Positions 16,431 through 62,475 of a DNA stretch of 64,000 nucleotides are shown here, piece by piece. The first letter of the stretch is position 1, and the number at the start of each line of letters is the position of its first letter. This DNA comes from Amycolatopsis sp. WAC 01376 (GTDB taxonomy: Bacteria; Actinomycetota; Actinomycetes; Mycobacteriales; Pseudonocardiaceae). The position numbers were made by a program, and so were the translations under genes. The stretch lies in assembly GCF_003947415.1 (NCBI RefSeq), contig NZ_QHKL01000004.1:62001-126000 (forward strand), in the 5' to 3' direction. Below the pieces are notes generated by a model. That model made no database searches and was not told the DNA's origin. It saw only the letters and a program-made list of their open reading frames with translations.

Positions 16431-16477
16431 GTGAAGGCCTCCTTCCCTACTCTCAAGGTAGGGAAGGAGGCCTTCAC
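16431..16477. terminator. Palindromic element, family 1 (3' of the lectin gene)
   Basis: Perfect 20-bp arms (GTGAAGGCCTCCTTCCCTAC and complement) with a 7-base loop lie 38 bases after the lectin stop, between convergent genes. Read in frame it would encode VKASFPTLKVGKEAFT. Confidence 0.75.
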
Positions 16478-16526
16478 TGCGTTTCGGCCACAGGAAGGCC
16501 CACTTCCTTCCGCTGGGGAGGCGACG

Positions 16527-16583
16527 GTGCTCCCAATGTGGCATTGGGGACACTGAGCGTCCCCAATGTGCCATTGGGAGCAC
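16527..16583. repeat. Compound palindrome built from two CCCAATG hairpins
   Basis: Two small hairpins, CCCAATGtggCATTGGG and CCCAATGtgcCATTGGG, are arranged so that the whole 57-base stretch also forms a larger hairpin (outer arms GTGCTCCCAATG). It could form either a double or a single stem. It lies in the 322-base gap between the lectin and prcA, and is not a member of family 1. The gap contains no gene. Confidence 0.6.
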
Positions 16584-16651
16584 TGGATGGGGAGCCTTCA
16601 CGCGTAGCCACGAGGAGCCCGCGTCGCGTCCACTGTGTACCGCGCCTCCGG

Positions 16652-16710
16652 AAGTACAGGAAGGCCCCCTCCCTTGCGTCCAGCGCAAGGGAGGGGGCCT
16701 TCCTGTACTT
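16652..16710. terminator. Palindromic element 3' of prcA
   Basis: Perfect 27-bp arms (starting AAGTACAGGAAGGCCCCC) with a 5-base loop end 5 bases beyond the prcA stop. It is well placed to terminate the pup-prcB-prcA transcript and, from the other side, the lectin transcript. Confidence 0.75.
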
Positions 16711-16715
16711 GAGAC

Positions 16716-17462
16716 TCAGTCCTTCTTGGACTCGCCCTCGGCTTCGTCCTCCGCGGGCTCCTCCGGCTCGGGGGGCAGAAGCGCGTCGAGCGCGGCACCG
16801 GCCACCCGGCGGAACTTACGTCCGCGCCGATCCCGCTCCAGCACGGCGACCTCGAGCTTCACCGGGTCCGAGTCGCCGTTCGTGGGCGTGGGGGTGTTGG
16901 CGCGCAACGCCTTCACCGCGACGCCGAGCGCCGCTTCCAGCTCCATGTCCGGCTCGTAGCTGTCCTTGAGCTTCGTGGTGAGCGTGTCGGCCTGGCCGCC
17001 CATCACGACGAACTTCGGCTCGTCGAAGATCGAACCGTCGTAGGTCAACCGGTACAGCTGGTCCTCGTCCGCGGTCGCGCCGACCTCGGCTACGCAGACC
17101 TCCACCTCGAACGGCTTCAGCTGCTCGGTGAAGATGCTGCCCAGCGTCGCGGCATACGCGTTCGCCAGCGCACGCGCGCTGACGTCCCGCCGGTCGTACT
17201 GGTAGCCCTTCAGGTCCGCGTGCCGGATGCCGGCGACGCGGAGGTTCTCGAACTCGCTGTAGCGGCCCACGGCCGCGAAACCGATCCGGTCGTAGATCTC
17301 CGACACCTTGTGCAACGTCGCCGAGGGGTTCTCGGCCACGAACAGCACGCCACCGCGGTACTTGAGCACGACCACGCTCCGGCCACGCGCGATGCCCTTG
17401 CGCGCGATCTCGGAACGCTCCCGCATCAGCTGCTCGGGAGAGGCGTACAACGGCATCGTCAC
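16716..17462 (-). CDS. prcA: Proteasome subunit alpha
   Basis: PrcA forms the outer, gating rings of the 20S core particle and is catalytically inactive. The 248-residue protein starts [73 protein letters not shown], the alpha-subunit N-terminal gating helix and first strands. An acidic tail ([17 protein letters not shown]) follows. The start may be GTG at 17460 or ATG two codons later. It lies 51 bases downstream of prcB on the same strand. Confidence 0.97.
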
Positions 17463-17513
17463 TGTGGTGCTCCGCTCTTTCGGGCTCTCATCGGGAAGGG
17501 GACAGGGAGAGGG

Positions 17514-18350
17514 CTAGCGCCCGCGCTCGGCTCGTGCGGCCACGATGGCCTCGGCCACCGCGGTCGTCTTCTCGAGCGGCACCGCCACCGCACCCTGCTC
17601 CGCGGTGACCGTCACGATCGTCGGGAAGATCCGGCGTACCAGATCCGGGCCGCCGGTCGCGGTGTCGTCGTCCGCCGCGTCGTACAACGCCTCCACCGCC
17701 GTCCGGATCGCGGCTTCGACGTCCGCGTCCGGGTCGTACAGCTTCTTCAGCGAGCCCTTCGCGAACAGCGATCCCGAGCCGATGGCGTGGTAGCCGGCGC
17801 TCTCCTCGTAACGTCCGCCGGTCGCGTCGTACGAGACGATCCGGCCCGCGTGCTTCGCGTCCTCCGCGTCGAGGTCGTACCCGACGAACAACGGCAGCAC
17901 GGCCAGCCCCGCCATCGCCATCTCCAGATTGGACTTCACCAGCCCGGCGAGCTTGTTCGTCTTGCCGTCGAGCGAGAGCGAAACACCCTCGATCTTCTCG
18001 TAGTGCGCCAGTTCGACCGCGTACAGCCGCACCATCTCGATCGCGAGCCCGGCAGAGCCCGCGATGCCCACCGCAGAGTACTCGTCGGTGAGATGCACCT
18101 TCTCCATGTCGCGCGAAGCGATCAGATTGCCCGACGTGGCCCGCCGGTCACCGGCGATCAGCACCCCACCCGCGAACTTGACCGCGACGATCGTCGTCCC
18201 GTGCGGGGCGTCCAGCCCGCCCGCCCCGGCCGAGACCCGCCGCTCCGGGAGCAGCTCGGGCGCCTGCGCCCGAAGGAAGTCCGAGAACGACGAGGTCGCC
18301 GACGAGAAGTACGCGGCGGGCAGCGCCGACTTACCCGAGGTGTGTTCCAT
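17514..18350 (-). CDS. prcB: Proteasome subunit beta
   Basis: PrcB provides the proteolytic sites of the 20S core. The 278-residue precursor has a 51-residue propeptide ending HG, so mature PrcB begins at Thr52 ([19 protein letters not shown]). Counting from that Thr, Asp17 and Lys33 are present ([19 protein letters not shown]), completing the catalytic set. The propeptide is expected to be autocatalytically removed on assembly. It is preceded by pup and followed by prcA, the standard order. Confidence 0.97.
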
Positions 18351-18423
18351 ACGTGCTCAAAGTTCCAATCTGTGTGATCCGCCGGCTCCGCACAGGCGGC
18401 CGCCCTGGCCGCCGGAAGACGAG

Positions 18424-18618
18424 TTACTCGCCGCCCTTTTGCACGTAGGCGCGGACGAAGTCCTCGGCGTTCTCCTCGAGCACGTCGTCGATCTCGTCGA
18501 GGATCGTGTCGACGTCCTCGCCGAGCTTCTCGCGCCGTTCCTGACCCGCCGGACCGCCGTCCTCGAACTCTTCGTCCGAGTCGCCGCCGCCGTGCTTTTC
18601 GATCTTTTCCTGAGCCAT
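18424..18618 (-). CDS. pup: Prokaryotic ubiquitin-like protein Pup (GGE form)
   Basis: Pup is the degradation tag attached to lysines. The 64-residue protein is acidic and Gly-rich, with the coiled-coil segment bound by Mpa (about 25-55, REKLGEDVDTILDEIDDVLEENAEDFVRAYVQ). It ends GGE rather than the GGQ of mycobacteria; the last codon is GAG. It can therefore be ligated by PafA without prior deamidation by Dop. It lies between dop and prcB on the same strand. Confidence 0.97.
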   Translation of the reverse strand: MAQEKIEKHGGGDSDEEFEDGGPAGQERREKLGEDVDTILDEIDDVLEENAEDFVRAYVQKGGE

Positions 18619-18715
18619 CTCGCCTCCCGGTGTGGCCGATGTTTCCTAGCCTACCCAGCGGTCCCGACATTCCGTGGGATCCGTGATCGCTTAACCCCGA
18701 TGAAAGGAAATCCCG

Positions 18716-20218
18716 CTAGTCCGAACCGGTGAGCGCCTCCACCAGCTCCTCGGCGGTCGCGGAGTCGTCCAGCAACTTCCCCACGTGGGCCTTCGTGCCC
18801 CGCAACGGCTCCAACGTCGGGATCCGCACCAGCGATTCCCTGCCGACGTCGAAGATGACCGAATCCCACGACGCCGCGGCGATGGAGCTGGCGTACTTCT
18901 CCAGCGCGCGGCCCCGGAAATAGGCCCTGGTGTCCGAAGGTGGCGTCGTGACCGCCTCCAGCACCTCCTCCTCGGTCACCAGACGCTTCATCGAACCCCT
19001 GGTGACGAGCCTGTTGTACAGGCCCTTGTCCAAGCGGACATCCGAGTACTGCAGGTCGACCAGCCGCAACCGCGGCGCGCCCCAGGCCAGCTGGTCCCGC
19101 GCGCGGTAGCCCTCGAGCAACCGCAGCTTCGCCGGCCAGTCCAGCCTGTCCGCGCATTCCTGGGGGTCCCGCGCCAGTGCGTCCAGGATCTCGCCCCAGA
19201 CCCGCAGGACCTCCTTGGAGGCCTCGTCCGCGCCGGTGCGCTCCAGGTTCGCCGACGCGATCTCGTGATAGGCGAACTGGAGGTCCAGCCCGGTGTACTT
19301 GCGCCCGTTGGCCAGCGACACCTTCGCCTTCAGCGTCGGGTCGTGGCTGATCTGGTGCACGGCCCGCACCGGCTCGTCCAGCTTCAGGTCGTCGAACCGG
19401 ATGCCCGCCTCGATCAGGTCCAGCACGAGCGCCGTCGTGCCGACCTTGAGGTACGTGGAGTACTCGGCCAGGTTCGCGTCGCCGATGATGACGTGCAGAC
19501 GGCGGTACTTGTCCGCGTCGGCGTGCGGCTCGTCGCGGGTGTTGATGATCCCGCGTTTGAGCGTCGTCTCCAGGCCGACCTCGACCTCGATGTAGTCGGA
19601 GCGCTGCGAGAGCTGGAAACCGGCTTCCTCGCTCTGCTGCCCGACACCGACCCGTCCCGAACCGGTCATCACCTGCCGGGACGCGAAGAACGGCGTCAGC
19701 CCCGCGATCACCGCGGTGAACGGCGTCGAGCGCTGCATCAGGTAGTTCTCGTGCGTGCCGTAGCTCGCGCCCTTGCCGTCGACGTTGTTCTTGTACAACT
19801 GCAAAGGCGGCTGACCGGGAACGGTGGCGGCCTTGCGCGCCGCCTCCTCCATGACCCGTTCGCCCGCCTTGTCCCAGATGACCGCGTCGCGCGCGTTCGT
19901 CACCTCGGGCGCCGAGTACTCCGGGTGCGCGTGGTCGACGTACAGCCGCGCCCCGTTGGTCAGGATGACATTCGCCGCGCCGAGGTCCTCGACGTCCGGG
20001 TCGTGCCCGGGGCCGCTCGGGCCGGTCAGGTCGAACCCGCGGGCGTCCCGCAGTGGCGATTCCACCTCGTAGTCCCACCGTGCCCGCCTGGCCCGCGGGA
20101 TGTCGGCCGCGGCCGCGTAGGCCAGCACGACCTGGGTCGAGGTGAGTACCGGGTTCGCCGTCGCGTCGCCCGGCACCGCGATGCCGTACTCGACTTCGGT
20201 TCCCATGATCCGCCGCAT
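18716..20218 (-). CDS. dop: Deamidase/depupylase Dop
   Basis: Dop removes Pup from substrates and, in GGQ organisms, deamidates Pup. The 500-residue protein begins [17 protein letters not shown], with the catalytic carboxylate region TEVEYG. An N-terminal region characteristic of Dop (about 40-80, [20 protein letters not shown]) is present and absent from PafA. The ATP-binding motif [18 protein letters not shown] follows. The ATG at 20216-20218 is preferred because the longer frame adds an unconserved leader. Since Pup here ends in Glu, depupylation is the likely main role. Confidence 0.96.
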
Positions 20219-20261
20219 ACCCACCACCCTACGGGGTCGGGGCCGTGCGACGATGCCCCCC

Positions 20262-20777
20262 ATGTCAGGCAGTGACGAACTCGTTGCGCTCTATGACCTC
20301 GACGGAACCGCGGTGGGAGCGGCCACCCGGTCCCGGGTCCGCGCCGAGGGGCTGTGGCACGCGGCGGGCGTGGTGTTGGTCCGTTCGAGTGACGGAGGTT
20401 CCGTTTACGTGCACTTGCGCACTCCCACGAAGGACGTCTATCCCTCCACTTGGGACTGCTGGGCGGGCGGCATCGTCGCGGCGGGTGAGACACCGGAGGA
20501 GTGCGCGCGCCGGGAACTCGCCGAAGAACTGGGTGTGCACGGAGTGGAACTGTGGCCGCTTTTCGTCCATGTCACCGACGACGACACGATCCGCTGCCAC
20601 AACTTCGCGTTCGAAACGCGCTGGGACGGCCCCTTCGTCCACCAACCGTCCGAAGTCGTGGAAGGACGTTGGCTGACACTGGCCGAGTTGCGTTCGTGGC
20701 TCGACGATCCGGAGAGCCGGTTCATCCCGGACGGCCGTCTCGGCGCGCTGGAGTGGTTCCGGCGAGAAGGCGCCTAG
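20262..20777 (+). CDS. NUDIX hydrolase
   Basis: A 171-residue NUDIX enzyme with the box [24 protein letters not shown] (Gx5Ex7REUxEExGU). It begins [41 protein letters not shown], as in YfcD-like NUDIX proteins near isopentenyl diphosphate isomerases; the substrate is unknown. It diverges from dop and its stop overlaps that of the convergent lipoprotein (shared CTAG). Confidence 0.92.
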
Positions 20778-21385
20778 GCCGAACGGAGGCGCTGCGCGAC
20801 GATCGGCAACAGCCGCTTCGCCGCGTCCGTCGCCCGCGCCTCGGTTCCGGCCGTCACGCTGAGGGCGGAGACGAGCTTCCCCTTGGCGAGCAACACCGTG
20901 CACGTCGTGCCCTCGCACCAGGCACGCTGGATCTCGACGCCGGCTTGCTTCGTCAGCGTGAGCTTCTTGCCTTCGCAGTCCGCCTGGGCGACGACGTCCG
21001 AGGCGTCACGGTCGGTGTACTCGGTGACCTGGTGCTCCAGCGTCGAGCCGCTCGGATACGACCACGTCGCCGAGCGGCTCGTGGCACGGGTGAGTCCGGT
21101 CAGACAGCCGGACACCTTGCTCTCACCGGGGACGACTTCTTCCTCGACGACGTCCTCGTCGGTCAGCAGCGCCGCGGAAACGGCGGCGGGGACCGGAGCC
21201 CGGGTCGAAGACGGCGGCACCGGCGCGGCCTGCGGCTTCACCGACGGTTGCGCGGGTTCGACCGTGGGCGTCGGTGCCGGGTCGTCGTAATAGGTGTCGA
21301 GGTCGTTGGGGCGGTCCGCGCAGCCCGACAAACCGAACAGCGCGACCGTCGCCACCGCGAGCACCTGCCGATGACGCACCCTCAA
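20774..21385 (-). CDS. Lipoprotein, unknown function
   Basis: A 203-residue protein with an N-terminal signal and lipobox LSGC (Cys22), so it is probably attached to the outer face of the membrane. A Pro/Ala-rich linker (about 38-72) precedes a globular domain with Cys pairs (for example SGCLTG and DCEGKK, WCEGTTC). I do not recognise the family; there is some resemblance to DUF3558-like secreted domains, not secure. Confidence 0.8.
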   Translation of the reverse strand: MRVRHRQVLAVATVALFGLSGCADRPNDLDTYYDDPAPTPTVEPAQPSVKPQAAPVPPSSTRAPVPAAVSAALLTDEDVVEEEVVPGESKVSGCLTGLTRATSRSATWSYPSGSTLEHQVTEYTDRDASDVVAQADCEGKKLTLTKQAGVEIQRAWCEGTTCTVLLAKGKLVSALSVTAGTEARATDAAKRLLPIVAQRLRSA

Positions 21386-21434
21386 GCCTCCCCGGTGACC
21401 CGCCAGACGTTTGCCGCGAGAGTAGTCCAGCCCC

Positions 21435-22388
21435 TCAATGCCAGCCGAGGCAGGACCGGTGCCGCCAGTAGGCGACCGGTTCTTCCGCGAGCGCGGCCAG
21501 CTCCGCGAGTTCGTCCGCGGTCGGCTTCACCTGCGTGGCAAGGAGATTCTCCGCGAGCTGGGCGGTACTCGACGGGCCGATGACCGCGACCGGCCGCCAG
21601 TCCTGCGCCAGCACGGCCGCGATCGCCACCGCGTCCGGACCGGCCCCGTGCTCCCTCGCGATCCGCGCGAGCGGTGGCGGCGGCTCGACCACCAACCGTC
21701 CGTTCGCGACGGTTTCCTTGACCAGCAACCGTTTCCCGGCGGCGTGCGCTTCCGCGAGCGCCGGGCCGACGGAGGGCTCGAGCAGGTTCCACGTCGACTG
21801 CACGGCACTGAAGACCGGCGTTCCGGAGACCTCCAGCTCGAACGCCCGGCGGACCGCGTCGGCCTGCGCGGGGCCGGAGGTGGAGAACCCCACCGGGACA
21901 CCGTCGGCGGCGAGTTCGGCCAGCGCGCCGATCAGCCGGTCGTCGCCGAACAGCGGACTGTCCACAGTGAGCGAGTGGACTTGGTAGAGGGAGACCGCTT
22001 TACCCAGCAGGTCAACGGTTTCCGCCCACTGCTCGCCGAACCGCGCCGCGGTGTGCTCCTTGACCTCGTGCACCTCCGCGTCGAGCTTCCACTCCCCTAC
22101 GTAGCGGTAGCCCCATTTGCTCGACACCGTCACGTCCGCGGGGGCGCGATCGGCGAGCCAACCGGCGAGGAACTCCTCCGAGGAACCATACGAACGGGCG
22201 ACATCGATCCACCGGACGCCCGCGCGGTACGCGTCGTCCAGTACGTCGTAGGTCGCCGCGCGCATCGCCTCGAACTCGCGTCCGGGCGGCAGCGCGTCGG
22301 CCGGGCCGAGGTTGATGTACGCGGGCCTGCCGAGCGCTGCCAGTCCGACGGCGATCCGGTCGCCGACATGGGTTTCCGAGGCTGTCAC
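21435..22388 (-). CDS. Aldo/keto reductase
   Basis: A 317-residue AKR-family (alpha/beta)8 oxidoreductase. Visible features are GLAALGRPAYINLG near the N-terminus, then AYRAGVRWIDVARSYGSSEEFLAGWLADR, containing the catalytic Asp and Tyr, and SSKWGYRY with the catalytic Lys. It lacks some canonical NADPH-loop residues, as in the divergent L-fucose-dehydrogenase-like AKRs. The GTG start overlaps the stop of the upstream small gene (GTGA). Confidence 0.9.
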   Translation of the reverse strand: MTASETHVGDRIAVGLAALGRPAYINLGPADALPPGREFEAMRAATYDVLDDAYRAGVRWIDVARSYGSSEEFLAGWLADRAPADVTVSSKWGYRYVGEWKLDAEVHEVKEHTAARFGEQWAETVDLLGKAVSLYQVHSLTVDSPLFGDDRLIGALAELAADGVPVGFSTSGPAQADAVRRAFELEVSGTPVFSAVQSTWNLLEPSVGPALAEAHAAGKRLLVKETVANGRLVVEPPPPLARIAREHGAGPDAVAIAAVLAQDWRPVAVIGPSSTAQLAENLLATQVKPTADELAELAALAEEPVAYWRHRSCLGWH

Positions 22389-22729
22389 CGGGCTCCTTCG
22401 TTCTTGTGGCGGAGGATCGCGAGCCACTGGCTCGAGTTCTGCGCCTGCCGATGGAGCTTTTCGAGGCGGGCCGCCGGGGCTCGAACGTAACCCTTGCCGA
22501 AGACGGGCGCGATCTGACGGAGGCTGGCGCCTTCCTCCCTGGCCGCGAGCAGTGCCCAGTCGGACGCGTCGGCGCAGGCCGCGGAGGCGCGGCGCAGCTC
22601 CCCCAGGATCTCGATGAGTTCGGGGGCGCTCACGTCCCCCGCTCGTACGGCGGCCGCCGTCGTTTCCAGCCACGCCAGGACATCGGCCTCGGTGATCGGC
22701 GCGCGCGGGCGCCCAGCGGATTCGCTCAC
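22385..22729 (-). CDS. Small helix-turn-helix-like conserved protein
   Basis: A 114-residue protein, taken from the GTG at 22727-22729. The middle is helical (ADVLAWLETTAAAVRAGDVSAPELIEILGELRRASAACADASDWALLAAREEGASLRQIAPVFGKGYVRAPAARLEKLHR), with a possible sigma-70 region 4-type helix-turn-helix (ASLRQIAPVFGKGYVRAPAA). I do not recognise the family. Four-base coupling to the aldo/keto reductase suggests joint function or regulation. Confidence 0.7.
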   Translation of the reverse strand: MSESAGRPRAPITEADVLAWLETTAAAVRAGDVSAPELIEILGELRRASAACADASDWALLAAREEGASLRQIAPVFGKGYVRAPAARLEKLHRQAQNSSQWLAILRHKNEGAR

Positions 22730-22871
22730 GGCCGATGAGTATAGGTCGTTATACGCGCGGCGCGCGGGACCGCCACGCGGAGGCGTGGGACACATCGTCC
22801 GAAAACCGCTGGAGTACACAGTGGATTCCCGATTCACTGAGCCGGAAGACGCGAACTCGGGAGAAGGACAA

Positions 22872-23783
22872 TTGGGACGTTTCAGTATCGCGATCCGGTT
22901 CGCGGCACTCGCGATCGTGTGGGGCGCGAGTTTTCTGTTCATCAAGATCGGCCTCACCGGCCTGTCGCCCGCTCAGGTGGCGCTTTCGCGCATCTGCCTC
23001 GGCGCGGTGGCCCTGATCGCCATCGCCGCATGGCGCCGCAAGCCACTCCCCCGTGATCCGGCGCTCTGGGGCCATCTCGCGGTGGTCTCCGTGCTGCTGT
23101 GCGTGATCCCGTTCCTGCTGTTCTCCTGGGCCGAGCAGTACATCTCGTCCGGGCTCGCCAGTATCTTCAACGCGACGACCCCGCTGATCACCATGCTCAT
23201 CGCCGCCGCGGCCCTGCCGTCGGAACGGTTCACGAAGGCCCGGACGGCCGGCCTGATCCTCGGCTTCCTCGGCGTGCTCACCATCGTCGGGGTCTGGCAA
23301 GGGATCGACATCTCCCACGAACTGACCGCGCAACTGGCGTGCCTCGGCGCGACGACCTGTTACGGGATCTCGTTCGTCTACGTGCGACGGTTCATCTCCT
23401 GGCGGAACCTCGACGCGCCGACCGTCGCACTCGGACAGGTCTGTTGCGGCGCCGTCGTGATGCTGCTGCTCGCGCCGTTCATCGCGACGACGCCGGTGCG
23501 CCTCGACACGCCGATCATCCTCAGCATGATCGCGCTCGGCGCGCTGGGCACCGGGCTCGCCTACTCCTGGAACGCGTCGATCATCGCGGCGTGGGGCGCG
23601 TCGAACGCGTCTGCCGTGACCTACCTCACACCCGTCGTCGGTGTGCTCCTCGGTGTCCTGGTCCTCGACGAACCCTTGGCGTGGAACCAGCCCGTCGGCG
23701 CACTGCTCGTCGTCCTCGGCATCCTGGCCGCGCACGGACGGCTGAGCGTGCGCAAGAAGGTCCGGGAATCCGTCCCCGTGTGA
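22872..23783 (+). CDS. EamA-family (DMT) transporter
   Basis: A 303-residue permease with ten hydrophobic segments in two EamA repeats. Typical signatures are IVWGASFLFIKIGLTGLSPAQVALSRICLGAV and the second-repeat AYSWNASIIAAWGASNASAVTYLTPVVGVLLGVLVLDEPL. The substrate, an amino acid or metabolite, is unknown. I choose a TTG start because GGGAGAAGG lies at ideal spacing before it; an upstream GTG is possible. Its 3' end is followed by a bidirectional terminator shared with mpa. Confidence 0.9.
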   Translation: MGRFSIAIRFAALAIVWGASFLFIKIGLTGLSPAQVALSRICLGAVALIAIAAWRRKPLPRDPALWGHLAVVSVLLCVIPFLLFSWAEQYISSGLASIFNATTPLITMLIAAAALPSERFTKARTAGLILGFLGVLTIVGVWQGIDISHELTAQLACLGATTCYGISFVYVRRFISWRNLDAPTVALGQVCCGAVVMLLLAPFIATTPVRLDTPIILSMIALGALGTGLAYSWNASIIAAWGASNASAVTYLTPVVGVLLGVLVLDEPLAWNQPVGALLVVLGILAAHGRLSVRKKVRESVPV

Positions 23784-23785
23784 CG

Positions 23786-23830
23786 CGAAAGGGCCCTTCG
23801 CCGCATGCGCTGCGGCGAAGGGCCCTTTCG
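23786..23830. terminator. Bidirectional terminator between EamA gene and mpa
   Basis: Perfect 20-bp arms (CGAAAGGGCCCTTCGCCGCA and complement) flank a 5-base loop and fill the 54-base gap between the stops of two convergent genes. Confidence 0.8.
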
Positions 23831-23837
23831 GCTTGCC

Positions 23838-27287: not shown

Positions 27288-27311
27288 CTCGCGCCGATAG
27301 CCGGGTCTTTG

Positions 27312-27366
27312 GTCCGTGAAGGCCTCCTTGAGGGACTCTGGGTCCCTCAAGGGGGCCTTCACGGAC
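27312..27366. terminator. Palindromic element, family 1
   Basis: Arms of 25 bases beginning GTCCGTGAAGGCCTCCTTGA pair with one G-T exception around a 5-base loop. Its in-frame reading is VKASLRDSGSLKGAFTD. It is the first of two elements between convergent genes (the anchored protein and trmI). Confidence 0.75.
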
Positions 27367-27403
27367 AGCCAAGCGCGACAACATGTGGCATCGCGCCTTG
27401 CCG

Positions 27404-27460
27404 AGTACATGAAGGCCCCCTTCATTGCGTCTAGCGCAGTGAAGGGGGCCTTCATGTACT
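27404..27460. terminator. Palindromic element, family 1
   Basis: Arms of 26 bases beginning AGTACATGAAGGCCCCCTTC pair with one mismatch around a 5-base loop. In frame it reads MKAPFIASSAVKGAFMY. It is the second of the pair between the anchored protein and trmI. Just downstream (about 27496) a half-copy of the GAGTGGCGATTCGG hairpin seen at 44.2 kb is present. Confidence 0.75.
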
Positions 27461-27549
27461 TCAGGGAGCAAGAACCGGCGGCTGGCTGGTCCCGGTGGCC
27501 GCGAGTGGCGATTCGGCTTCTGGTGGATGCAGGCGACCAACCTGAGCGG

Positions 27550-32448: not shown

Positions 32449-32453
32449 CCAAC

Positions 32454-32506
32454 GCCATGAACGGTCCGTTCCTTGCAAATTTTGCAAGGAACGGACCGTT
32501 CATGGC
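32454..32506. terminator. Palindromic element, family 1
   Basis: Perfect 26-bp arms (starting GCCATGAACGGTCCGTTCCT) with an AT-rich tip (AAATTTT) begin 6 bases after the ParA-like stop and end 8 bases before the hisG stop. The in-frame reading is MNGPFLANFARNGPFMA. Confidence 0.8.
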
Positions 32507-32514
32507 ATCCAGGG

Positions 32515-37513: not shown

Positions 37514-37538
37514 GCTCGCGGCACCGCCCTGCCGCAAG

Positions 37539-37593
37539 TGTCATGAAAGGGTCGTTCCTGACGTTTTTCGTCAGGAACGACCCTTTCATGACA
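37539..37593. terminator. Palindromic element, family 1
   Basis: Perfect arms beginning TGTCATGAAAGGGTCGTTCC surround a TTTTT loop. The in-frame reading is MKGSFLTFFVRNDPFMT. It is the first of two elements between the PAC2 gene and the convergent metallophosphoesterase. Confidence 0.8.
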
Positions 37594-37638
37594 TCCGGGA
37601 CTCACTCGCCACGGGTGAAGCTGCCAGCCCCCTCAAGC

Positions 37639-37691
37639 GCTATGAACGGTCCGTTACTTGCAAATTTTGCAAGTAACGGACCGTTCATAGC
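37639..37691. terminator. Palindromic element, family 1
   Basis: Perfect 26-bp arms (GCTATGAACGGTCCGTTACT and on) with an AT-rich tip. It is nearly identical in sequence to the element at 32454-32506, differing by the matched pair change T/A within the stem. In frame it reads MNGPLLANFASNGPFIA. Confidence 0.8.
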
Positions 37692-37705
37692 ATCCGGGCG
37701 ACCGC

Positions 37706-42751: not shown

Positions 42752-42765
42752 GGCGTTATACGGAT

Positions 42766-42818
42766 GTCATGAAAGGGTCGTTCAGGACAAAAGATGTCCT
42801 GAACGACCCTTTCATGAC
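42766..42818. terminator. Palindromic element, family 1
   Basis: Perfect 24-bp arms (GTCATGAAAGGGTCGTTCAG and on) with loop AAAGA lie between the convergent ABC-F and mshC stops. The in-frame reading is MKGSFRTKDVLNDPFMT. Confidence 0.8.
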
Positions 42819-42823
42819 GTTCC

Positions 42824-44213: not shown

Positions 44214-44267
44214 GGTGGTCGTGAGTGGCGATTCGGGTTCTAACCCGAATCGCCACTCACGACCACC
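44214..44267. terminator. Long perfect hairpin 3' of the VWA operon
   Basis: Perfect 26-bp arms (GGTGGTCGTGAGTGGCGATT and on) with a 2-base loop (GGTTctAACC tip) lie 15 bases after the stop of the VWA gene. A related imperfect hairpin with the same GTGAGTGG...GGTTctAACC...CCACTCAC frame is at 51237-51280. It is distinct from family 1. Confidence 0.7.
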
Positions 44268-50730: not shown

Positions 50731-50831
50731 CGACGATCGACCTCATGAGTGGTGATGACGGTTCGGGCCGTGGCTTAGGTACCTACGGGCGCCTGGATGC
50801 GAGCTTGGCCGCGGACCGGTGCGCGGATGGC

Positions 50832-50965
50832 GGTTTCGCGTGATTGGACGGACGACACGCGTGTTCGGGCGGACGACTCGTGGCGGACCCGGCCGCCATC
50901 GTGTCGTCCATCCACTCACGCGTGTCGTCCGCCGGATCACGTTTGTCGTCCGTCCAGTCACGTGA
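50832..50965. repeat. Inverted array of short GGACGGACGAC-type units
   Basis: Two units on the left (GATTGGACGGACGACACGCG, then TTCGGGCGGACGACTCG) are followed on the right by three in the opposite sense (GTGTCGTCCATCCACTCACG, GTGTCGTCCGCCGGATCACG, GTCGTCCGTCCAGTCACG). Units are 20-24 bases. Both strands can code TDDxR/CRPSxH-type peptides, without evidence of translation. Confidence 0.55.
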
Positions 50966-50991
50966 CATCGCCGGTTCTGGAAGCCAGGCCC

Positions 50992-51050
50992 GAGTCCGTG
51001 AAGGCCTCCTTGAGGGACTCTGGGTCCCTCAAGGAGGCCTTCACGGACTC
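50992..51050. terminator. Palindromic element, family 1
   Basis: Perfect 27-bp arms (GAGTCCGTGAAGGCCTCCTT and on) with loop TCTGG. The core is almost the same as the element at 27312-27366. The in-frame reading is VKASLRDSGSLKEAFTD. Confidence 0.8.
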
Positions 51051-51157
51051 GATTACCGCCACGTTCACCCCACCGGCACCAGCAGCCACAGCGGCCGCGC
51101 GTGAAGACCCCCTTCCCTCGGCTCAGCCGAAGGAACTCGACCTTCACCCCTTCCCCG

Positions 51158-51212
51158 GTACATGAAGGACCCCTTCCTTGCGCCTGGCGCAAGGAAGGGG
51201 TCCTTCATGTAC
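51158..51212. terminator. Palindromic element, family 1
   Basis: Perfect 26-bp arms (GTACATGAAGGACCCCTTCC and on) with a 3-base loop. In frame it reads MKDPFLAPGARKGSFMY. It is the second family-1 element between the convergent TetR and hemH genes. Confidence 0.8.
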
Positions 51213-51236
51213 ATCGGGAGGGCACTGGCCGAGCCT

Positions 51237-52407: not shown

Positions 52408-52425
52408 CCTGGTACGGTCGCTCCC

Positions 52426-53010: not shown

Positions 53011-53048
53011 CACCTGGAACCAAACCCCTGTGCGCAACGCTGCCCACA

Positions 53049-53070: not shown

Positions 53071-53085
53071 CTGGAGGGAATCCCC

Positions 53086-54267: not shown

Positions 54268-54275
54268 GGAGAATC

Positions 54276-54680
54276 ATGTCCGAACGAACCCGAGCCACCC
54301 TCGACGAGTTCTTCCGCCGAATGTCCACAGGGGACACCGACGGAGCCACGGAGCTGTTCGCCGACAGCGTCGCGTGGGACATCCCCGGCGCGACCGAGCT
54401 GGTCCCGTGGATCGGCCCGCGGCGGAACCGGGCGGAGATCCGCGAGTTCCACGAACTGCTCGACAAAGGGCTCATCAAGGACCGGTTCGACGTCGAACGC
54501 GTCCTCGTCGACGGGCCGCACGCGGTCGCGATCGGCCGACTCCGCTCGACGATCCGCAGTACCGGCAAGGTGATCGAGACGGCCTTCACCATCGAGTTCG
54601 AGGTGAACGGCGACGGCCTGATCACCAAGTACCTGCTGCTCGAGGACTCGTGGCACGTGGCCAACGCCGTCCTGCCCTGA
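54276..54680 (+). CDS. SnoaL/NTF2-like protein
   Basis: A 134-residue protein with the SnoaL-like cone fold: ERTRATLDEFFRRMSTGDTDGATELFADSVAWDIPGATELVPWIGP at the start, and GDGLITKYLLLEDSWHVANAVL at the end. Members are isomerases, cyclases or ligand-binding proteins; here the function is unknown. It starts 8 bases after the MFS stop (AAGGAG ribosome-binding site) and is the last gene of the TetR cassette. Confidence 0.85.
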   Translation: MSERTRATLDEFFRRMSTGDTDGATELFADSVAWDIPGATELVPWIGPRRNRAEIREFHELLDKGLIKDRFDVERVLVDGPHAVAIGRLRSTIRSTGKVIETAFTIEFEVNGDGLITKYLLLEDSWHVANAVLP

Positions 54681-54681
54681 T

Positions 54682-54736
54682 GCGCGTGAAGGCCCCCTTC
54701 CCTCGGCTGAGCAGTGGGAAGGGGGCCTTCACGCGC
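54682..54736. terminator. Palindromic element, family 1
   Basis: Arms of 21 bases (GCGCGTGAAGGCCCCCTTCC and on) with a 13-base loop begin 1 base after the SnoaL gene and end 8 bases before the inhA stop. The in-frame reading is VKAPFPRLSSGKGAFTR. Confidence 0.75.
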
Positions 54737-54744
54737 GTCGAGAC

Positions 54745-55512: not shown

Positions 55513-55560
55513 GGGACCTCCAGTCCGGGTGGTTTCGATCGGTACGGGAAAACGGGGACG

Positions 55561-57815
<2,255 letters not shown>

Positions 57816-57825
57816 GCGGGAAGGT

Positions 57826-58494
57826 ATGGCCGTGCGGGTGCTGCTCGTCGAAGACGACGCCGGTGTCGCCGACGCGCTCGCCGAAGCCCTGCAATCGCGC
57901 GGCCATACCGTCTCCCACGCGATCCGCGGCAGCGACGCGCTGCACCGGCATCGCGCGGCCGACGTGATCCTGCTGGACCTCAACCTGCCGGACATGCACG
58001 GGCTCGACGTGCTCAGGAAGGTCCGGCAGGTCTCTCCGGTGCCGGTGCTCGTGCTCACCGCGAGCGGGGACGAGCGGTCCGTGGTGCGCGGGCTGCGGCT
58101 CGGCGCCGACGACTACCTGACCAAACCGGTCCGCCTTGCCGAACTGCTGGCGAGGATGGACGCGGTCGTCCGGCGTGCCGCGGTCTCGGCAACGCCGCAG
58201 GACGGCGTCGTCCGCGTCGAGGACGTCGAGATCGACCTCGGCGCGCGGCGCGTGCTCGTCGACGGGACCGACATCGGGCTCACCGCCAAGGAATTCGCCG
58301 TCCTGGCCGTGCTCGCCGCGCGGCCGGGCACCGCGGTGAGCCGCCAGCAGCTGATGGACGAGGTCTGGGGCGACGCGTACCTCGCCGTCTCCCGTTCGCT
58401 CGACGTGCACCTGACCCAGCTGCGCGCGAAGCTCGACCGGCCGGGACTGCTCACCACGATCCGGGGTTTCGGCTACCGCCTCGGCCGGGGCTGA
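57826..58494 (+). CDS. OmpR/PhoB-family response regulator
   Basis: A 222-residue regulator. The receiver has the acidic pair in LLVEDDAGV, the phosphorylation site Asp51 (LLDLNLPDMHG) and the Lys in DYLTKPV. The C-terminal winged helix is the OmpR type (TAKEFAVLAVLAARPGTAVSRQQLMDEVWGD ... LDVHLTQLRAKL). It lies 3 bases before the sensor kinase. Confidence 0.95.
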   Translation: MAVRVLLVEDDAGVADALAEALQSRGHTVSHAIRGSDALHRHRAADVILLDLNLPDMHGLDVLRKVRQVSPVPVLVLTASGDERSVVRGLRLGADDYLTKPVRLAELLARMDAVVRRAAVSATPQDGVVRVEDVEIDLGARRVLVDGTDIGLTAKEFAVLAVLAARPGTAVSRQQLMDEVWGDAYLAVSRSLDVHLTQLRAKLDRPGLLTTIRGFGYRLGRG

Positions 58495-58497
58495 CCG

Positions 58498-59901
58498 GTG
58501 CGCACCCGGCTGCTGGTCGTCCTCGTCGCGCTCGCGCTGACCGTGGTCGCCGCGTTCGCGATCCCGTTGTTCGGGTCGACCGCCGCGCAGCGGACCCAGC
58601 AGCTGGTGATCGCCCGCAACGCCGACGTCGACCGGTTCGTCGTCCTCGCCCAGCAAGCCGTCGACGCCGGCGACGCGACCACGCTGACGGTCGACGCCGC
58701 GCGGTATTCGTCGTTATACGGCGAGGCCGTCGTGGTGGTCGACGCGCGTGGAGGGCCGCTGGTCGAAACCGGCGGGATGACCGCCGGGGAACCGGTGGTC
58801 CGCTCGCTCGTCGAGGCCGCGCTGCGCAACCAGCTCGCGAAGGGACCGGAGCAGCTGAGCCCGTGGTCGGCGGATCCGGTCTATTTCGCCCGCCCGGTGG
58901 GCACCGGGACCCGGGTGGCCGGAGTGGTCGTCCTTCGCGCGTCGGTGACCGCGGCGGCGGCCGACGTCGCCACCCGCTGGGCCACGATCGTCGCGGGCGC
59001 GGCGCTGGTCGCGGCGCTGTTCGTGCTCGTCGCGGTCCTGCTGGCCCGCTGGATGGTGCGGCCGCTGCACGAATTGGAGACCGGCGTGCAGGCGGTGACC
59101 GAGGGGCATCGCGCCCAGGTTCCCGATCGGGCGGGGCCCCGCGAGCTGCGTTCGCTCGCGACGTCGTTCAACCGGATGTCCGACGCCGTCGTCGAGGCAT
59201 CCGAGCAGCAGCGGCGGCTCGTCGCGGACGCGTCACATCAGCTGCGCAATCCCATGGCCGCCTTGCGGTTGCGGGTGGATTCGCTGGCCGCGCAGGTCGA
59301 TGGGGACGGCCAGCGGGCCTACCGGGCGACCGTCGCGGAGGTCGAGCGCCTGGAGTCCCTGCTCGACGGGTTGCTCGCGCTGGCGCTCGCCGAAAGCGCG
59401 GCGACCCGGCTCGCCGCTGGGGAATCCGGCGACGAACCCTGCGATCTCCCGGCCGTACTGGCCGAACGGGTCGACGCGTGGCGTCCCTCGGCGGACGGCG
59501 CGGGAGTCCGCCTCGCGGCGTCGCAAGGCCACGACGAGCCGGTGCCCGTGCGGTGCCCGGAAAGCGATCTCGCCCAAGTGCTGGACGTCCTGCTGGACAA
59601 CGCGGTGCACTACGCGGGCCGCGGCGCCACGATCACCACCGGCTACGAGACCGGTGACACGACCGCCACGGTCTTCGTGTCCGACAACGGTCCTGGTCTG
59701 TCCACAGAGGACCGTGAACGGGCGACCGAACGGTTCTGGCGGGCAGGCGGCGACGGGGCGCCGCGCGGGACGGGACTCGGCCTCTCGATCGCGAACCAGC
59801 ACGTGCTCGCCCGGGGCGGGAAACTCGAACTGCGCCAAGCCGAACCGCACGGGCTCGAAGTCCGCGTCGAACTCCCTCTCGCCACGGGAGGGACATCATG
59901 A
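58498..59901 (+). CDS. Sensor histidine kinase with HAMP domain
   Basis: A 467-residue kinase. Two membrane helices (about 4-25 and 163-186) bracket an extracytoplasmic region of about 135 residues. A HAMP domain (WMVRPLHELETGVQAVTEGHRAQVP) leads to the phosphoacceptor His247 (ADASHQLRNP) and a catalytic domain (DNAVHYAGRG, NGPGLS, GTGLGLSI). The start is GTG and its stop overlaps the TAXI start by four bases. Confidence 0.95.
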   Translation: MRTRLLVVLVALALTVVAAFAIPLFGSTAAQRTQQLVIARNADVDRFVVLAQQAVDAGDATTLTVDAARYSSLYGEAVVVVDARGGPLVETGGMTAGEPVVRSLVEAALRNQLAKGPEQLSPWSADPVYFARPVGTGTRVAGVVVLRASVTAAAADVATRWATIVAGAALVAALFVLVAVLLARWMVRPLHELETGVQAVTEGHRAQVPDRAGPRELRSLATSFNRMSDAVVEASEQQRRLVADASHQLRNPMAALRLRVDSLAAQVDGDGQRAYRATVAEVERLESLLDGLLALALAESAATRLAAGESGDEPCDLPAVLAERVDAWRPSADGAGVRLAASQGHDEPVPVRCPESDLAQVLDVLLDNAVHYAGRGATITTGYETGDTTATVFVSDNGPGLSTEDRERATERFWRAGGDGAPRGTGLGLSIANQHVLARGGKLELRQAEPHGLEVRVELPLATGGTS

Positions 59902-60839
59902 CCGTCACCAGGCGTACGGCGATCCTCGCTGGGCTCGCCACACTCGCGGGCTGCTCAACGGCGGGCTACCGGGGGCCGGAGCGGGAGGTCGTCATTTCGG
60001 CGGGCGAGAGCGGCGGTTTCTACCTCGCCTTCGCGGAACTGCTGGCCCAGCAGCTGAACCGGGCGGAGCCGCGGCTGCGCGCGACGGCCGTCGCCACCGA
60101 GGCCAGCGTCGAGAACCTGCGGCGGCTGCGGGACGGCCGGGCCGATCTCGGGCTCGTCCTCGGCGACGTCGCCGAGGCGGCCTTCACCGGCGCGGAGCCG
60201 TTCTCCGTCCCGATCGCCTTCTCGGCCATCGGCCGCGTCTACGAGAACTACCACCAGCTCGTGGTCCGCGCGGACGGCCGCGTGCGATCGCTCGCCGATC
60301 TGGCCGGGCGGCCGGTGGCGATGGGCGCGAGCGGCTCCGGCGTGGCGGTGTTCAGCTCACGGCTGTTCGCCCGCGCCCAAGTGCCGGTGAAGGCGAAGAA
60401 CCTGCTCCTGGGTGAAGCGATCAACGCGTTGGCGGCACACGAGGTCGACGCGCTGCTCTGGTCCGGCGGGATCCCGACTCCCGCGCTCACCGAGCTCAAC
60501 CGGTCCACCGCGATCACCCTGCTCCCCCTCGACGCCCATCTGCCGGCGCTGCGGGCGGGCTACGGCCCGGTGTACGACCAGGTCCATGTCCCGGCGCAGG
60601 CCTACCACGGTGTCGGCGAACTGCGGACGATCGGCGTCGCGAACCTGTTGCTGGCCGCGCCTTCGCTGCCCGACGACGTCGCGGCCGCCGTCGCGCGCGT
60701 GCTGGCCGGACACGCCGCCGACCTCGTCCCGGCACCCGCGGTCGGAACCCAGTTCCTCGACGTCCGGACGCTGATCGGCACCGGCAAGGTCCCGCTGCAC
60801 CCTGGTGCCGCGTCGGCCTACCGTGCCCTGCACGGGTGA
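59898..60839 (+). CDS. TAXI-family solute-binding lipoprotein
   Basis: A 313-residue binding protein. The N-terminus is a twin-arginine-like lipoprotein signal: TRRTAIL then lipobox LAGC (Cys19). The TAXI family pattern is clear: VVISAGESGGFYLAFAELLAQQLNR, TEASVENLRRLRDGRADLGLVLGDVAEAAFTG and AFSAIGRVYENYHQLVVRAD. TAXI proteins normally serve TRAP transporters, but no TRAP membrane subunit is present here. Its coupling to a sensor kinase suggests that it presents a ligand to the kinase. Confidence 0.92.
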   Translation: MTVTRRTAILAGLATLAGCSTAGYRGPEREVVISAGESGGFYLAFAELLAQQLNRAEPRLRATAVATEASVENLRRLRDGRADLGLVLGDVAEAAFTGAEPFSVPIAFSAIGRVYENYHQLVVRADGRVRSLADLAGRPVAMGASGSGVAVFSSRLFARAQVPVKAKNLLLGEAINALAAHEVDALLWSGGIPTPALTELNRSTAITLLPLDAHLPALRAGYGPVYDQVHVPAQAYHGVGELRTIGVANLLLAAPSLPDDVAAAVARVLAGHAADLVPAPAVGTQFLDVRTLIGTGKVPLHPGAASAYRALHG

Positions 60840-60939
60840 CCCGCGCTCCATCTTCAGAGGGATGCGCGCCGACCTGGCGCGCTGCCAGGGTCGGAGGCAG
60901 GCGGCCGCCGGGCCGCCCCGATCCGGAAGGACTCCAGCA

Positions 60940-62271
60940 GTGGGCGAATTCATGCGGTCGTCGCAACATGGTCTACCTGGGACAGTGTCATCGAGACACA
61001 CCAGGGTGGTGCGGGGTTCGGCGCTGATCGCGGGCCTGGCGCTCGCGGGCGGCCTCGCCACGGCGGCCCCCGCCGTCGCGGCCGACCAGGCCAAGCTCAC
61101 CGCACCGGCCCTCACCGGCCACCACGACGTCGGCACCACCGACCTCCACCTCGTCGACCAGTCCCGCCCCGATCCGTGGAAACCGGAACGGCGCCGGGAA
61201 CTCATGGTCACCGTCACCTATCCGGCGGACCGGTTCGCCGACGGACCGCGCGCGCCGTGGCTCACGCCCGGCATCAGCGGCGTCATCGACCAGACGCTGG
61301 CCAGCAAGGACTATCTCGATCTCCCGGCGGGCTCCATCGATTGGAAGTCGGCGAAGCGGCGGGCCGAGCTCGGCGTTCCCGCGGCGCACGGCGCGCCCAA
61401 GCCGGTCGCGCTCTTCTCGCCCGGTTTCGGCGGGCCCCGGGAGACGTACTCGGCGATCGTCGACGATCTGGCCAGCCGCGGCTACGTCGTCGTCTCGCTC
61501 TCGCACACCTACGAGAGCGCGGCGGTCGAATTCCCCGGCGGGCGGCTCGAAACGGCCTTGCCGCCGGGCGAGGGATCCGAGTTCATGAAAAAGGCGCTCG
61601 ACGCGCGGGTCGGTGACACCCGATTCGTCCTCGACCAGCTCGCGAAGATCGCCCGCGGCGAGAATCCTGACGCGGAGAAGCGGCAGCTCCCCCGCGGCCT
61701 CGGCTGGTCACTCGACCTGTCCCGGGTCGGTGCCTACGGGCATTCCTACGGCGGGTTCACCTCCGGCGAGACGATGGTGCACGACCGCCGGATCGACGCC
61801 GGGATCAACCTGGACGGCGCGATGGCGACCGCGTTCGGCTACCCGCCGGGCAGCGCCTACGTGCCCGGCGAGGTCACGAAACGCGGCCTGGACCGGCCGT
61901 TCATGCTGATGGGCGCCGAGGGCGTCGACGAGAACGGGAAACCGCTGGAGCACACGCACAAGCAGCCCGATTTCGACCGCAGCTGGGCGGACTTCTGGGC
62001 CAACCAGCGGGGCTGGAAGCGAGATCTGCTGCTGCGCGGCGGCAGCACGCACATGGCCTACAGCGATCTTCAGGTCGTCGTGCCGCAACTCGGTTCGCGA
62101 GTGGCGCCGGAGAAGCGTGAGGCGGTCATCGGCACCATCGATCCCCGCCGATCGCTGGCCGCGCAACGGGAGTACATCGGCGCGTTCTTCGATCTGCACC
62201 TGAAGGGCCGCGACCGGCACCTGTTCGACGGCGAGTCGCCGCGCCACCCGAATATCGATTTCATCGACTGA
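60940..62271 (+). CDS. Secreted alpha/beta hydrolase (PAF-acetylhydrolase-like)
   Basis: A 443-residue exported hydrolase from the GTG at 60940 (GGAAGGA ribosome-binding site); an ATG 12 bases on is also possible. A signal peptide (about 20-50, ending AVAA) precedes a catalytic domain. The nucleophile elbow is GAYGHSYGG and FSPGFGGPRE provides the oxyanion region; the His is probably in GGSTHMAYSD. The family includes platelet-activating factor acetylhydrolase-type and polyester-type lipases. The natural substrate is unknown. Confidence 0.88.
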   Translation: MGEFMRSSQHGLPGTVSSRHTRVVRGSALIAGLALAGGLATAAPAVAADQAKLTAPALTGHHDVGTTDLHLVDQSRPDPWKPERRRELMVTVTYPADRFADGPRAPWLTPGISGVIDQTLASKDYLDLPAGSIDWKSAKRRAELGVPAAHGAPKPVALFSPGFGGPRETYSAIVDDLASRGYVVVSLSHTYESAAVEFPGGRLETALPPGEGSEFMKKALDARVGDTRFVLDQLAKIARGENPDAEKRQLPRGLGWSLDLSRVGAYGHSYGGFTSGETMVHDRRIDAGINLDGAMATAFGYPPGSAYVPGEVTKRGLDRPFMLMGAEGVDENGKPLEHTHKQPDFDRSWADFWANQRGWKRDLLLRGGSTHMAYSDLQVVVPQLGSRVAPEKREAVIGTIDPRRSLAAQREYIGAFFDLHLKGRDRHLFDGESPRHPNIDFID

Positions 62272-62276
62272 GCCGG

Positions 62277-62392
62277 ACGATTCGGGCCAAGGGTGGCTTA
62301 GGTACCTGCGTGGATTCCGGCTGCGGCCTTCACGGACTCGATCATCGCACGTTCGCCCCAAAGGCACCAGCAGCCACAACAGTGGCGCGTGT
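62277..62392. repeat. Compound intergenic repeat, short copy
   Basis: Both ends match the compound repeat at 50758-51104 (TTAGGTACCT core on the left, GGCACCAGCAGCCACA on the right). The middle part is deleted, leaving only CGGCCTTCACGGACTCG from the right arm of the family-1 palindrome. Confidence 0.6.
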
Positions 62393-62418
62393 CAGGCGCT
62401 CACGTGAGTTTTGTGGGG

Positions 62419-62475
62419 ATGTCGTGAAGGGCCCCTTTGAGACGTTGAAGGTCTCAAAGGGGCCCTTTACGACAT
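62419..62475. terminator. Palindromic element, family 1
   Basis: Arms of 25 bases (ATGTCGTGAAGGGCCCCTTT and on) pair with one mismatch around a 7-base loop. In frame it reads VKGPFETLKVSKGPFTT. It lies between two genes on the same strand, unlike most family members. A decayed right half-copy follows at about 62500-62527. Confidence 0.75.

Follow-up and report, generated by a model that had tools for sequence, protein, structure and literature searches.

A REP/BIME-like palindrome family between converging genes of Amycolatopsis, with a possible role in ending transcripts

The window analysed here, a 64-kb stretch of the Amycolatopsis sp. WAC 01376 genome, holds 13 near-perfect palindromes of 45–61 bp each with the skeleton TGAAnG...CnTTCA, 12 of which lie between convergent genes. 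Members of this family are copied around the genome and are common to the genus. The family is probably, though with some reserve, to be read as REP/BIME-like, its copies acting as bidirectional U-tract-less terminators or 3'-end barriers, as judged from position and structure. In the proposed mechanism, RNA from either side would fold into a hairpin of ~24 bp, which would end, stabilise or block both converging transcripts; the convergent gap would favour a hairpin and accept many kinds, so that copies landing there would be retained and exchanged. Different palindromes at the same spot in related species suggest spreading sequences that have been taken over to stop transcription of both genes.

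Palindrome structure and arm-to-arm covariation

A palindrome scan blind to the family returned 15 near-perfect palindromes from the 64 kb versus 0 from five order-3 Markov nulls, and 51 from 464 kb versus 0 from two nulls. In the whole genome, 515 exact cores were counted versus 0 for the reversed pattern. The palindromes are real and greatly exceed chance expectation. Thirteen of the 15 belonged to one family, and those at 16527 and 44214 are members of other families. The 11 elements listed in the first-pass annotation of this DNA were all present within 1 base, with the skeleton as described; the count was too low by the palindromes at 16652 and 23786, which complete the family of 13. A covariance model trained on 25 copies from this genome, including all 13 window members, recovered 13/13 of these as well as an asymmetric member outside the training set. 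Rfam families gave 0 matches in the window at gathering score. The elements are as follows, with no strand assigned unless given:

16431..16477: 45-bp-core palindrome in the convergent gap 16394–16715
16652..16710: 45-bp-core palindrome, AGGAAGG variant, gap 16394–16715; absent from the first-pass annotation
23786..23830: 45-bp-core palindrome, CGAA variant, convergent gap 23784–23837; likewise absent
27312..27366: 45-bp-core palindrome, subfamily A (inner stem GAGGGAC), convergent gap 27288–27549
27404..27460: 45-bp-core palindrome, subfamily C, convergent gap 27288–27549
32454..32506: 45-bp-core palindrome, subfamily F (CGGTCCG), convergent gap 32449–32514
37539..37593: 45-bp-core palindrome, subfamily G (AGGGTCG), convergent gap 37514–37705
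37639..37691: 45-bp-core palindrome, subfamily F, convergent gap 37514–37705
42766..42818: 45-bp-core palindrome, subfamily G, convergent gap 42752–42823
50983..51224: A-B'-C composite repeat of ~230 bp, BIME-like
50991..51051: 45-bp-core palindrome, subfamily A, first of the three composite units
51098..51150, + strand: asymmetric weaker member B' (29.8 bits, E 1.5e-7), second of the three composite units
51158..51212: 45-bp-core palindrome, subfamily C, third of the three composite units
54682..54736: 45-bp-core palindrome, subfamily B (inner stem CCTCGG), convergent gap 54681–54744
62419..62475: 45-bp-core palindrome, subfamily D, tandem gap 62272–62531; sole window member outside convergent gaps

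Each 45-bp core consists of two dyads of 13–15 bp, TGAAnGnnnCnTTCn, spaced 30 bp, and with its pairing flanks makes a unit of about 53–61 bp. With the inner gap left free at 5–60, core length was 45 bp in 38/40 skeleton matches from an 864-kb sample of the same genome, and relatives' cores had the fixed length in 34/37 cases. Such a pattern could belong to a DNA-level site, where dyads about three helical turns apart bind a nucleoid or segregation protein and the RNA hairpin is incidental: the loop sequence is free although the dyad spacing is fixed at 30 bp, dyad symmetry is present inside single palindrome arms, mismatches in the arms lack an RNA-wobble preference, and dyads with a 30-bp period occur in Allokutzneria and Actinophytocola. 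This is improbable, however, given that exact cores vary from 0 to 546 among species, subfamilies are unlike at many arm positions, and relatives have generic hairpins of different length at the same sites. In the favoured reading, the fixed 30-bp spacing probably reflects recognition by a protein when the element is copied, because a hairpin as such should be largely indifferent to the precise spacing.

Pairing was analysed in 25 hand-chosen copies from this genome, 22 of them distinct. Among the distinct copies, 97.5% of 528 cells pair and two-sided changes occur at 18/24 pairs. The matched differences on both arms claimed in the first-pass annotation are thus real, and its view that the repeats form an intergenic family in the genus, with arms that covary strongly, is supported. 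In 147 cells both sides had changed with pairing kept, 5 cells changed on one side still pair and 13 are unpaired, which is unlike stepwise RNA compensation via wobble pairs. A DNA process (arm-templated hairpin correction, or conversion between dispersed copies), rather than selection for pairing, is a quite conceivable main source of the covariation, if one that we rather doubt. It is compatible with the other readings and fits both the 147 two-sided versus 5 one-sided cells and a concerted four-fold change from CGGTCCG to AGGTCCT at 32449–32514, which matches subfamilies elsewhere. The pairs 27312/50992 and 32454/37639 fall into subfamilies found repeatedly in this genome, so their matched arms could be block-copied. 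Alone, however, a DNA process of this kind leaves the unrelated hairpins in the same gaps unexplained, and in same-site species pairs, which reuse sequences and are not independent, one-sided changes equal paired two-sided ones (105 vs 105).

Copies, spread and position relative to genes

Across 60 genomes of the genus, each had between 0 and 546 exact cores, with 0–5 in 19 of them. Six of these 19 were searched with the covariance model and had 6 to 52 weaker matches each; at most 150 candidates were scored per genome and both strands were matched, so these figures are not copy numbers. The skeleton was also found in other Pseudonocardiales, which share the two-dyad architecture with other sequences. 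Among the cores listed, 16/21 from other genera had at least 9 of 12 free pairs versus 0/28 in unrelated taxa (80 titled stretches of at least 113 matched in genome contigs, sorted by hand). To call the family characteristic of the genus was therefore inexact, both for this reason and because of the 19 core-poor genomes. Matches in Bacteroidetes, Pelagibacter and others were rejected as apparent chance, all 28 listed having at most 5 of 12 free pairs. Viral carriage was rejected as well: at least 120 skeleton matches were obtained in viral contigs, of which those listed had a chance-like maximum of 7 of 12 free pairs, and 0 of the 120 listed reached 9 of 12. Plasmids gave no match to a single 76-bp subfamily A query. 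The host of the family is a soil bacterium, and many of its relatives share such palindromes.

The 40 cores of the 864-kb sample reduce to 31 different sequences, and in 7 sets identical cores lie at separate places. The palindrome pair at 37539–37691 recurs genome-wide as a ~155-bp unit (about 76–82% identity), and whole or partial copies of the A-B'-C composite were found at many other places in the genome, with 74–92% identity where the match covers most of the repeat. Mobilisation as a classical GTAG-tagged REP by a RAYT tyrosine transposase would fit the high copy number, the extragenic and palindromic character, the dimers and composites, and the location after stop codons as in PMC3733652. 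It is nevertheless largely refuted and very unlikely indeed: PF01797 (Y1_Tnp) had no match in any of the 60 genomes while 5/14 control genomes were positive, and within 10 bp of the core GTAG was present in 3/174 flanks and CGTC in 5/174. The palindrome ends are only loosely CAAG (11/174 tetramers). CAAG/CTTG is the IS91 target, which prompted the idea of an IS91-like Y2 enzyme; the search for it was uninformative, as its control was silent. Among candidates for a parent transposon, 7 genes are flanked by palindromes, and no obvious transposase was seen in their protein starts, judged by eye.

Positions relative to gene ends were checked using a purpose-written gene caller, not curated annotation, and were mostly just after the stop codons of converging genes. 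All convergent gaps of at least 50 bp in the window hold a family member (8/8), divergent gaps hold none, and 5/13 convergent junctions, where genes overlap or almost touch, are without an element. The window is unusually dense in elements compared with larger stretches of the genome: convergent gaps of at least 50 bp had palindromes in 23/33 cases in C23 (window included), with family members in 18, and in 17/30 cases in C11, with family members in 5. All 40 cores of the 864-kb sample were intergenic (46/47 in relatives): 28 were convergent, 12 tandem and 0 divergent, where the intergenic lengths predict 6.2, 20.4 and 13.5 (chi-square p 3e-21, with each copy taken as independent). The relative G022, covered over 480 kb, had 13 convergent, 6 tandem and 0 divergent cores, plus 1 called genic; other relatives had 4/47 divergent and 1/47 genic. 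Convergent cores were at most 50 bp from a stop codon in 19/28 cases in this genome and 28/35 in relatives, while only 6/12 tandem copies in this genome were that close to the upstream stop codon. T content beyond the palindrome was 1.69 per 10 nt vs 1.88 in the background, i.e. no U-tract; a canonical U-tract terminator was rejected, the hairpin being present and T enrichment absent.

Selfish REP-like insertions without a job, landing widely but surviving only between gene ends where they are harmless and forming hairpins as a by-product, would account for the 0 divergent cores in this genome and in G022, as expected of purifying selection against promoter damage, and also for the identical cores at different places and the occurrence of composites and palindrome pairs. 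Against them stands a core density about 8 times higher in convergent than in tandem gaps (28 per 14.8 kb vs 12 per 49.0 kb).

The same gaps across relatives

Hairpins were compared at the same gaps by a folding test (best 70-nt fold vs dinucleotide shuffles; all gaps of 35–400 bp; cut-off >10 kcal/mol) in high-copy (224–546 cores) and low-copy genomes (0–14 cores, 5 sites), with the mid-copy genomes G003 and G005 (125 and 167 cores) kept as their own group. A strong fold was obtained at the same convergent gaps in 7/7 cases in the window, 43/44 in high-copy relatives, 5/5 in the two mid-copy genomes and 15/19 in low-copy ones; the comparison gaps gave 5/120 (divergent) and 19/236 (tandem). 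A strict palindrome finder (score ≥13) detected a palindrome at only 10/35 same-site gaps of low-copy genomes, at most of which a hairpin was detected by the folding test alone. Fewer strict palindromes in these genomes are what selfish insertion would lead one to expect, but the hairpins in 15/19 of their tested gaps, several of them unrelated in sequence, speak against it and indicate that the convergent gap favours a hairpin even without the repeat. Insertion without function is, overall, an unlikely account, though one to be taken seriously.

In relatives a strong hairpin is usually present in the corresponding gaps, and it frequently belongs to a different subfamily or is unrelated in sequence. 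At 42752–42823 the hairpins of several relatives are unrelated in sequence, at 37514–37705 the palindromes of 6/8 close relatives differ from the two in the window, and the palindrome at 23786..23830 is retained in high-copy relatives with matched changes. G022, 94.7% identical beside the gaps, was compared at the 223/394 junctions that could be mapped: convergent spacers had a median identity of 0.76, with 5/12 below 70%, versus 0.94 and 0/82 for tandem and divergent spacers. Of 15 convergent junctions with a palindrome in either genome, 4 had it in one genome only. Neither a clean empty site nor a target duplication was seen, in this or any other comparison made. Since hairpins are kept and spacer sequence is replaced, both copying and hairpin selection seem to act. 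The first-pass annotation had favoured selection for the fold over recent copying; the first half is supported, as convergent gaps of relatives mostly keep a hairpin while its sequence changes, and the second is not, given the 7 sets of identical cores found at separate places. A further-reaching proposal, of mobile bidirectional terminators of the Pseudonocardiales, in which a double dyad ruled by 30 bp would be spread by a non-Y1 enzyme and would keep exchanging the terminators of convergent gene pairs under a constant need for a hairpin, is tentative and on balance doubtful.

Comparison with known systems and significance

No published description of this palindrome family was found in a literature search. 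REPINs are inverted REP pairs making one long hairpin; the Amycolatopsis unit likewise has two palindromic units in inverted order in a single long hairpin, but with a fixed 30-bp centre spacing, and RAYT was not found in the 60 genomes. Ordinary terminators are not known to make up a family of dispersed related sequences. GTAG and CGTC REPs are described in PMC3733652 as high-copy extragenic palindromes with dimers and composites, mostly past stop codons of convergent or tandem genes, the CGTC type without a dedicated transposase; the actinobacterial terms looked for were absent from its main text. The Amycolatopsis family is similar in being high-copy, extragenic and palindromic, with dimers and the A-B'-C composite; unlike REPs, it has no GTAG or CGTC tag and no Y1/RAYT gene in 60 genomes, and its core is longer, fixed at 45 bp with two dyads 30 bp apart. 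Mycobacterial I-shaped terminators are described as strong hairpins about 50 bp or less from the stop codon without poly-U (PMC12288462), which resembles the U-tract-less hairpins here and their distance of at most 50 bp from a stop in 19/28 convergent cores. In contrast, the Amycolatopsis hairpins form a dispersed sequence family, and termination is here a prediction; the stopping of mycobacterial RNA polymerase at U-tract-less hairpins is itself presented as disputed (PMC12288462). In Streptomyces clavuligerus, bidirectional terminators (Bi-TEPs) were mapped from RNA ends (PMC8269248); the Amycolatopsis sites would similarly be single places where two facing transcripts end, but are proposed from position and structure instead of RNA ends.

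That REP elements act as terminators has been suspected for a long time, but where they lie does not by itself distinguish a function from tolerance. Following the same convergent gap across species, with its fast sequence replacement and mostly retained hairpin, makes this question testable. That the family spreads where the usual transposase was not found implies, moreover, an unrecognised copying mechanism in this antibiotic-producing group.

Architecture of the palindromic core

All 11 palindromes reported in the first-pass annotation were found in the window. A family-blind scan returned 15 near-perfect palindromes, compared with 0 in five Markov nulls. A single core was common to 13 of the 15, with the layout TGAAnG - 5 bases - TT - 19 bases - AA - 5 bases - CnTTCA (slight variants tolerated); members at 16652 and 23786 had been absent from the earlier list. 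A covariance model trained on 25 copies from the WAC 01376 genome, including all 13 window members, recovered these 13/13 (all in its training set) and also picked out a weaker, asymmetric copy at 51098, outside the training set. With the inner gap left free at 5–60 bases, the length was exactly 45 bp in 38/40 skeleton matches in 864 kb of WAC 01376 and in 34/37 matches of relatives, and the reversed skeleton with free inner gap gave 0 matches in WAC 01376 DNA. Pairing extended 4–6 bp outside the core, then fell to background.

Each arm of the core is a dyad in itself. Arm positions 2, 5 and 6 were complementary to their mirror positions, which the search pattern left free, in 78%, 76% and 95% of 192 arms, respectively; positions 1 and 7 of these arms showed no complementarity to their mirrors (37% and 30%). 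The dyads are spaced 30 bp centre to centre, a distance that might be a ruler set by a protein. Similar dyads were found between convergent genes of Actinophytocola algeriensis (locus L194, 574–711; spacing 30, 30, 30 and 33 bp), and three dyads with 30 bp spacing in Allokutzneria (locus L173, 2690–2895), where our gene calls include a short ORF across the array that may be spurious. Since 30 bp is also 10 codons, short repetitive ORFs called at the dyads of both loci may be spurious.

Abundance and gene context

The WAC 01376 genome held 515 exact cores. At least one was present in 55 of 60 genus genomes (range 0–546 per genome; reversed controls 0 or 1). Six genomes with 0–5 exact cores gave 6 to 52 covariance-model matches each, both strands counted; a genome with zero exact cores may still carry relatives of the family. 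Within the order, 13/200 genomes had an exact match, 6 of the 13 outside the genus. Among the matches listed were many Amycolatopsis species, Prauserella, Lentzea, Kutzneria, Allokutzneria, Actinophytocola and Haloechinothrix. For sorted loci among these matches, at least 9 of 12 free pairs formed in 40/43 Amycolatopsis cores and in 16/21 cores of other Pseudonocardiales (including one Mycobacteriaceae bin); 10 of the latter 21 lay between convergent genes. Listed matches from unrelated taxa reached at most 5/12 free pairs (28 cores). In a draft assembly, N runs lay inside palindromes at locus L026 and in gaps of the relative G007 (window 32449, 37514); hairpins may thus cause assembly gaps and undercounting.

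With our own gene calls (67 window genes, 90% coding), a family palindrome was present in 8/8 window convergent gaps of at least 50 bp, 0/12 divergent gaps held one, and 2/20 tandem gaps held a palindrome, one of these from another family. None of five overlapping or near-touching convergent junctions had a palindrome, and these arrangements were retained in most mapped relatives:

Window 6636/6633, 14499/14496, 20777/20774, 48567/48572 and 62972/62960: palindrome-free tight convergent ends

In the larger WAC 01376 stretches, family palindromes occupied 18/33 (C23, window included) and 5/30 (C11) convergent gaps, and any palindrome 23/33 and 17/30; the window is unusually dense by comparison. 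Placement relative to gene ends, which the first-pass annotation had marked for checking, was strongly skewed over 864 kb: 28 cores were convergent, 12 tandem and 0 divergent, versus 6.2, 20.4 and 13.5 expected from intergenic length. Counts were 13 convergent, 6 tandem, 0 divergent and 1 called genic in 480 kb of G022, the closest relative fetched, and 35, 7, 4 and 1 in shorter stretches of other relatives. Other-family palindromes occurred in divergent gaps of C23 (3) and C11 (1). Further repeats were recorded as follows:

Window 44214–44267: second palindrome family, TCGTGAGTGG...GTTAGAAC...CCACTCACGA, also in several relatives
Window 16527–16583: third palindrome family, CCCAATGTGGCATTGGGGACGCTGAGCGTCC..., several copies in C11 and C23
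Window 50816–50981: repeat of ~165 bp in which inverted copies of CGTGATTGGACGGACGACACGC are abundant; the genome has some ten or more partial copies
C11, e.g. 278616, 288802, 326845, 349340: further recurring palindrome family, GCGTTTCGTCCTCTGAATGCGG...

The 16527–16583 family appears to have two self-complementary arms and a ~45-bp core, and 45-bp-core elements are sparse in the C11 region of the GCGTTTCGTCCTCTGAATGCGG palindromes. In the relatives G006 and G008, halves of the 44214-type palindrome flank stretches of several hundred bases, as if its TTAGAA loop had formerly been an insertion target.

Same-gap turnover, copying and covariation

At window convergent junctions bearing a palindrome, one was also present in 33/39 mapped junctions of six relatives, two of the six misses being assembly Ns in G007; at palindrome-free window junctions, the same relatives had one in 1/165 tandem and 0/62 divergent cases. 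A strict finder gave 44/52 for the same convergent junctions in eight high-copy relatives, 4/10 in the mid-copy genomes G003 and G005, and 10/35 in eight genomes with 0–14 cores. By folding of all gaps of 35–400 bp (hairpin defined as >10 kcal/mol beyond shuffles), hairpins were detected in 7/7 window, 43/44 high-copy, 5/5 mid-copy and 15/19 low-copy (5 sites) convergent gaps, versus 5/120 divergent and 19/236 tandem gaps. In gap 42752–42823, most species have a hairpin after GTTATAC; its sequence belongs to the family in some of them and is unrelated in others, and no significant hairpin was seen there in G011 or G028. In the comparison with G022, sequence change is concentrated in convergent spacers (median identity 0.76, 5/12 below 70%, versus 0.94 and 0/82 for tandem and divergent spacers), and 11 of 15 convergent junctions palindromic in either genome were palindromic in both.

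The 40 WAC 01376 cores comprised 31 distinct sequences, with seven identical-core groups whose members lay at separate places. Subfamily sequence was kept a few bases past the core, the flanks beyond being mostly dissimilar. Palindrome pairs and a ~230-bp composite of family members (A-B'-C, window 50983–51224) recur in the genome; asymmetric, broken variants likewise recur as copies, so a perfect palindrome is not required for propagation.

For the 25 copies (22 distinct), 97.5% of cells were paired, with 147 two-sided versus 5 one-sided still-pairing changes and 13 unpaired cells; 0/500 shuffles reached this level. The arm-matched changes noted earlier are real. In species pairs compared at the same site, two-sided changes were paired in 105 cases and unpaired in 28, and one-sided changes numbered 105 (slid-partner control, 105 of 3366 two-sided); free-position mismatches were G-U 20, A-C 18 (about equal) and others 53 in sum. 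Palindromy of the family is maintained, but single-strand RNA compensation accounts for the pattern less well than would the copying of subfamilies, correction at the DNA level or a requirement acting on both strands. The earlier reading, selection for the fold rather than recent copying, is partly supported: hairpins kept at the same gaps in relatives favour selection for a hairpin, but copying is plain from the identical cores at separate places.

Relation to known elements and possible function

The elements are copied repeats with a preferred position, turning over with the hairpin mostly kept. Parts of an account of REPs (PMC3733652) describe a similar gene-relative position and composites, and this kind of element is thus already known; the 45-bp-core family differs in lineage, in its fixed double-dyad architecture and in having neither tags nor a Y1 enzyme found, and same-gap replacement distinguishes it. 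No prior account of the family was found among the titles and abstract starts listed in searches of open-access literature. A search for Y1 transposases gave 0 in 60 genomes, with working controls; spread would proceed via some other copying agent. No U-tract was seen beside the palindromes; U-tract-less terminators are described, with opposing results cited, in parts of a mycobacterial review (PMC12288462). Between convergent genes, the 45-bp-core elements may act as bidirectional terminators or 3'-end barriers.
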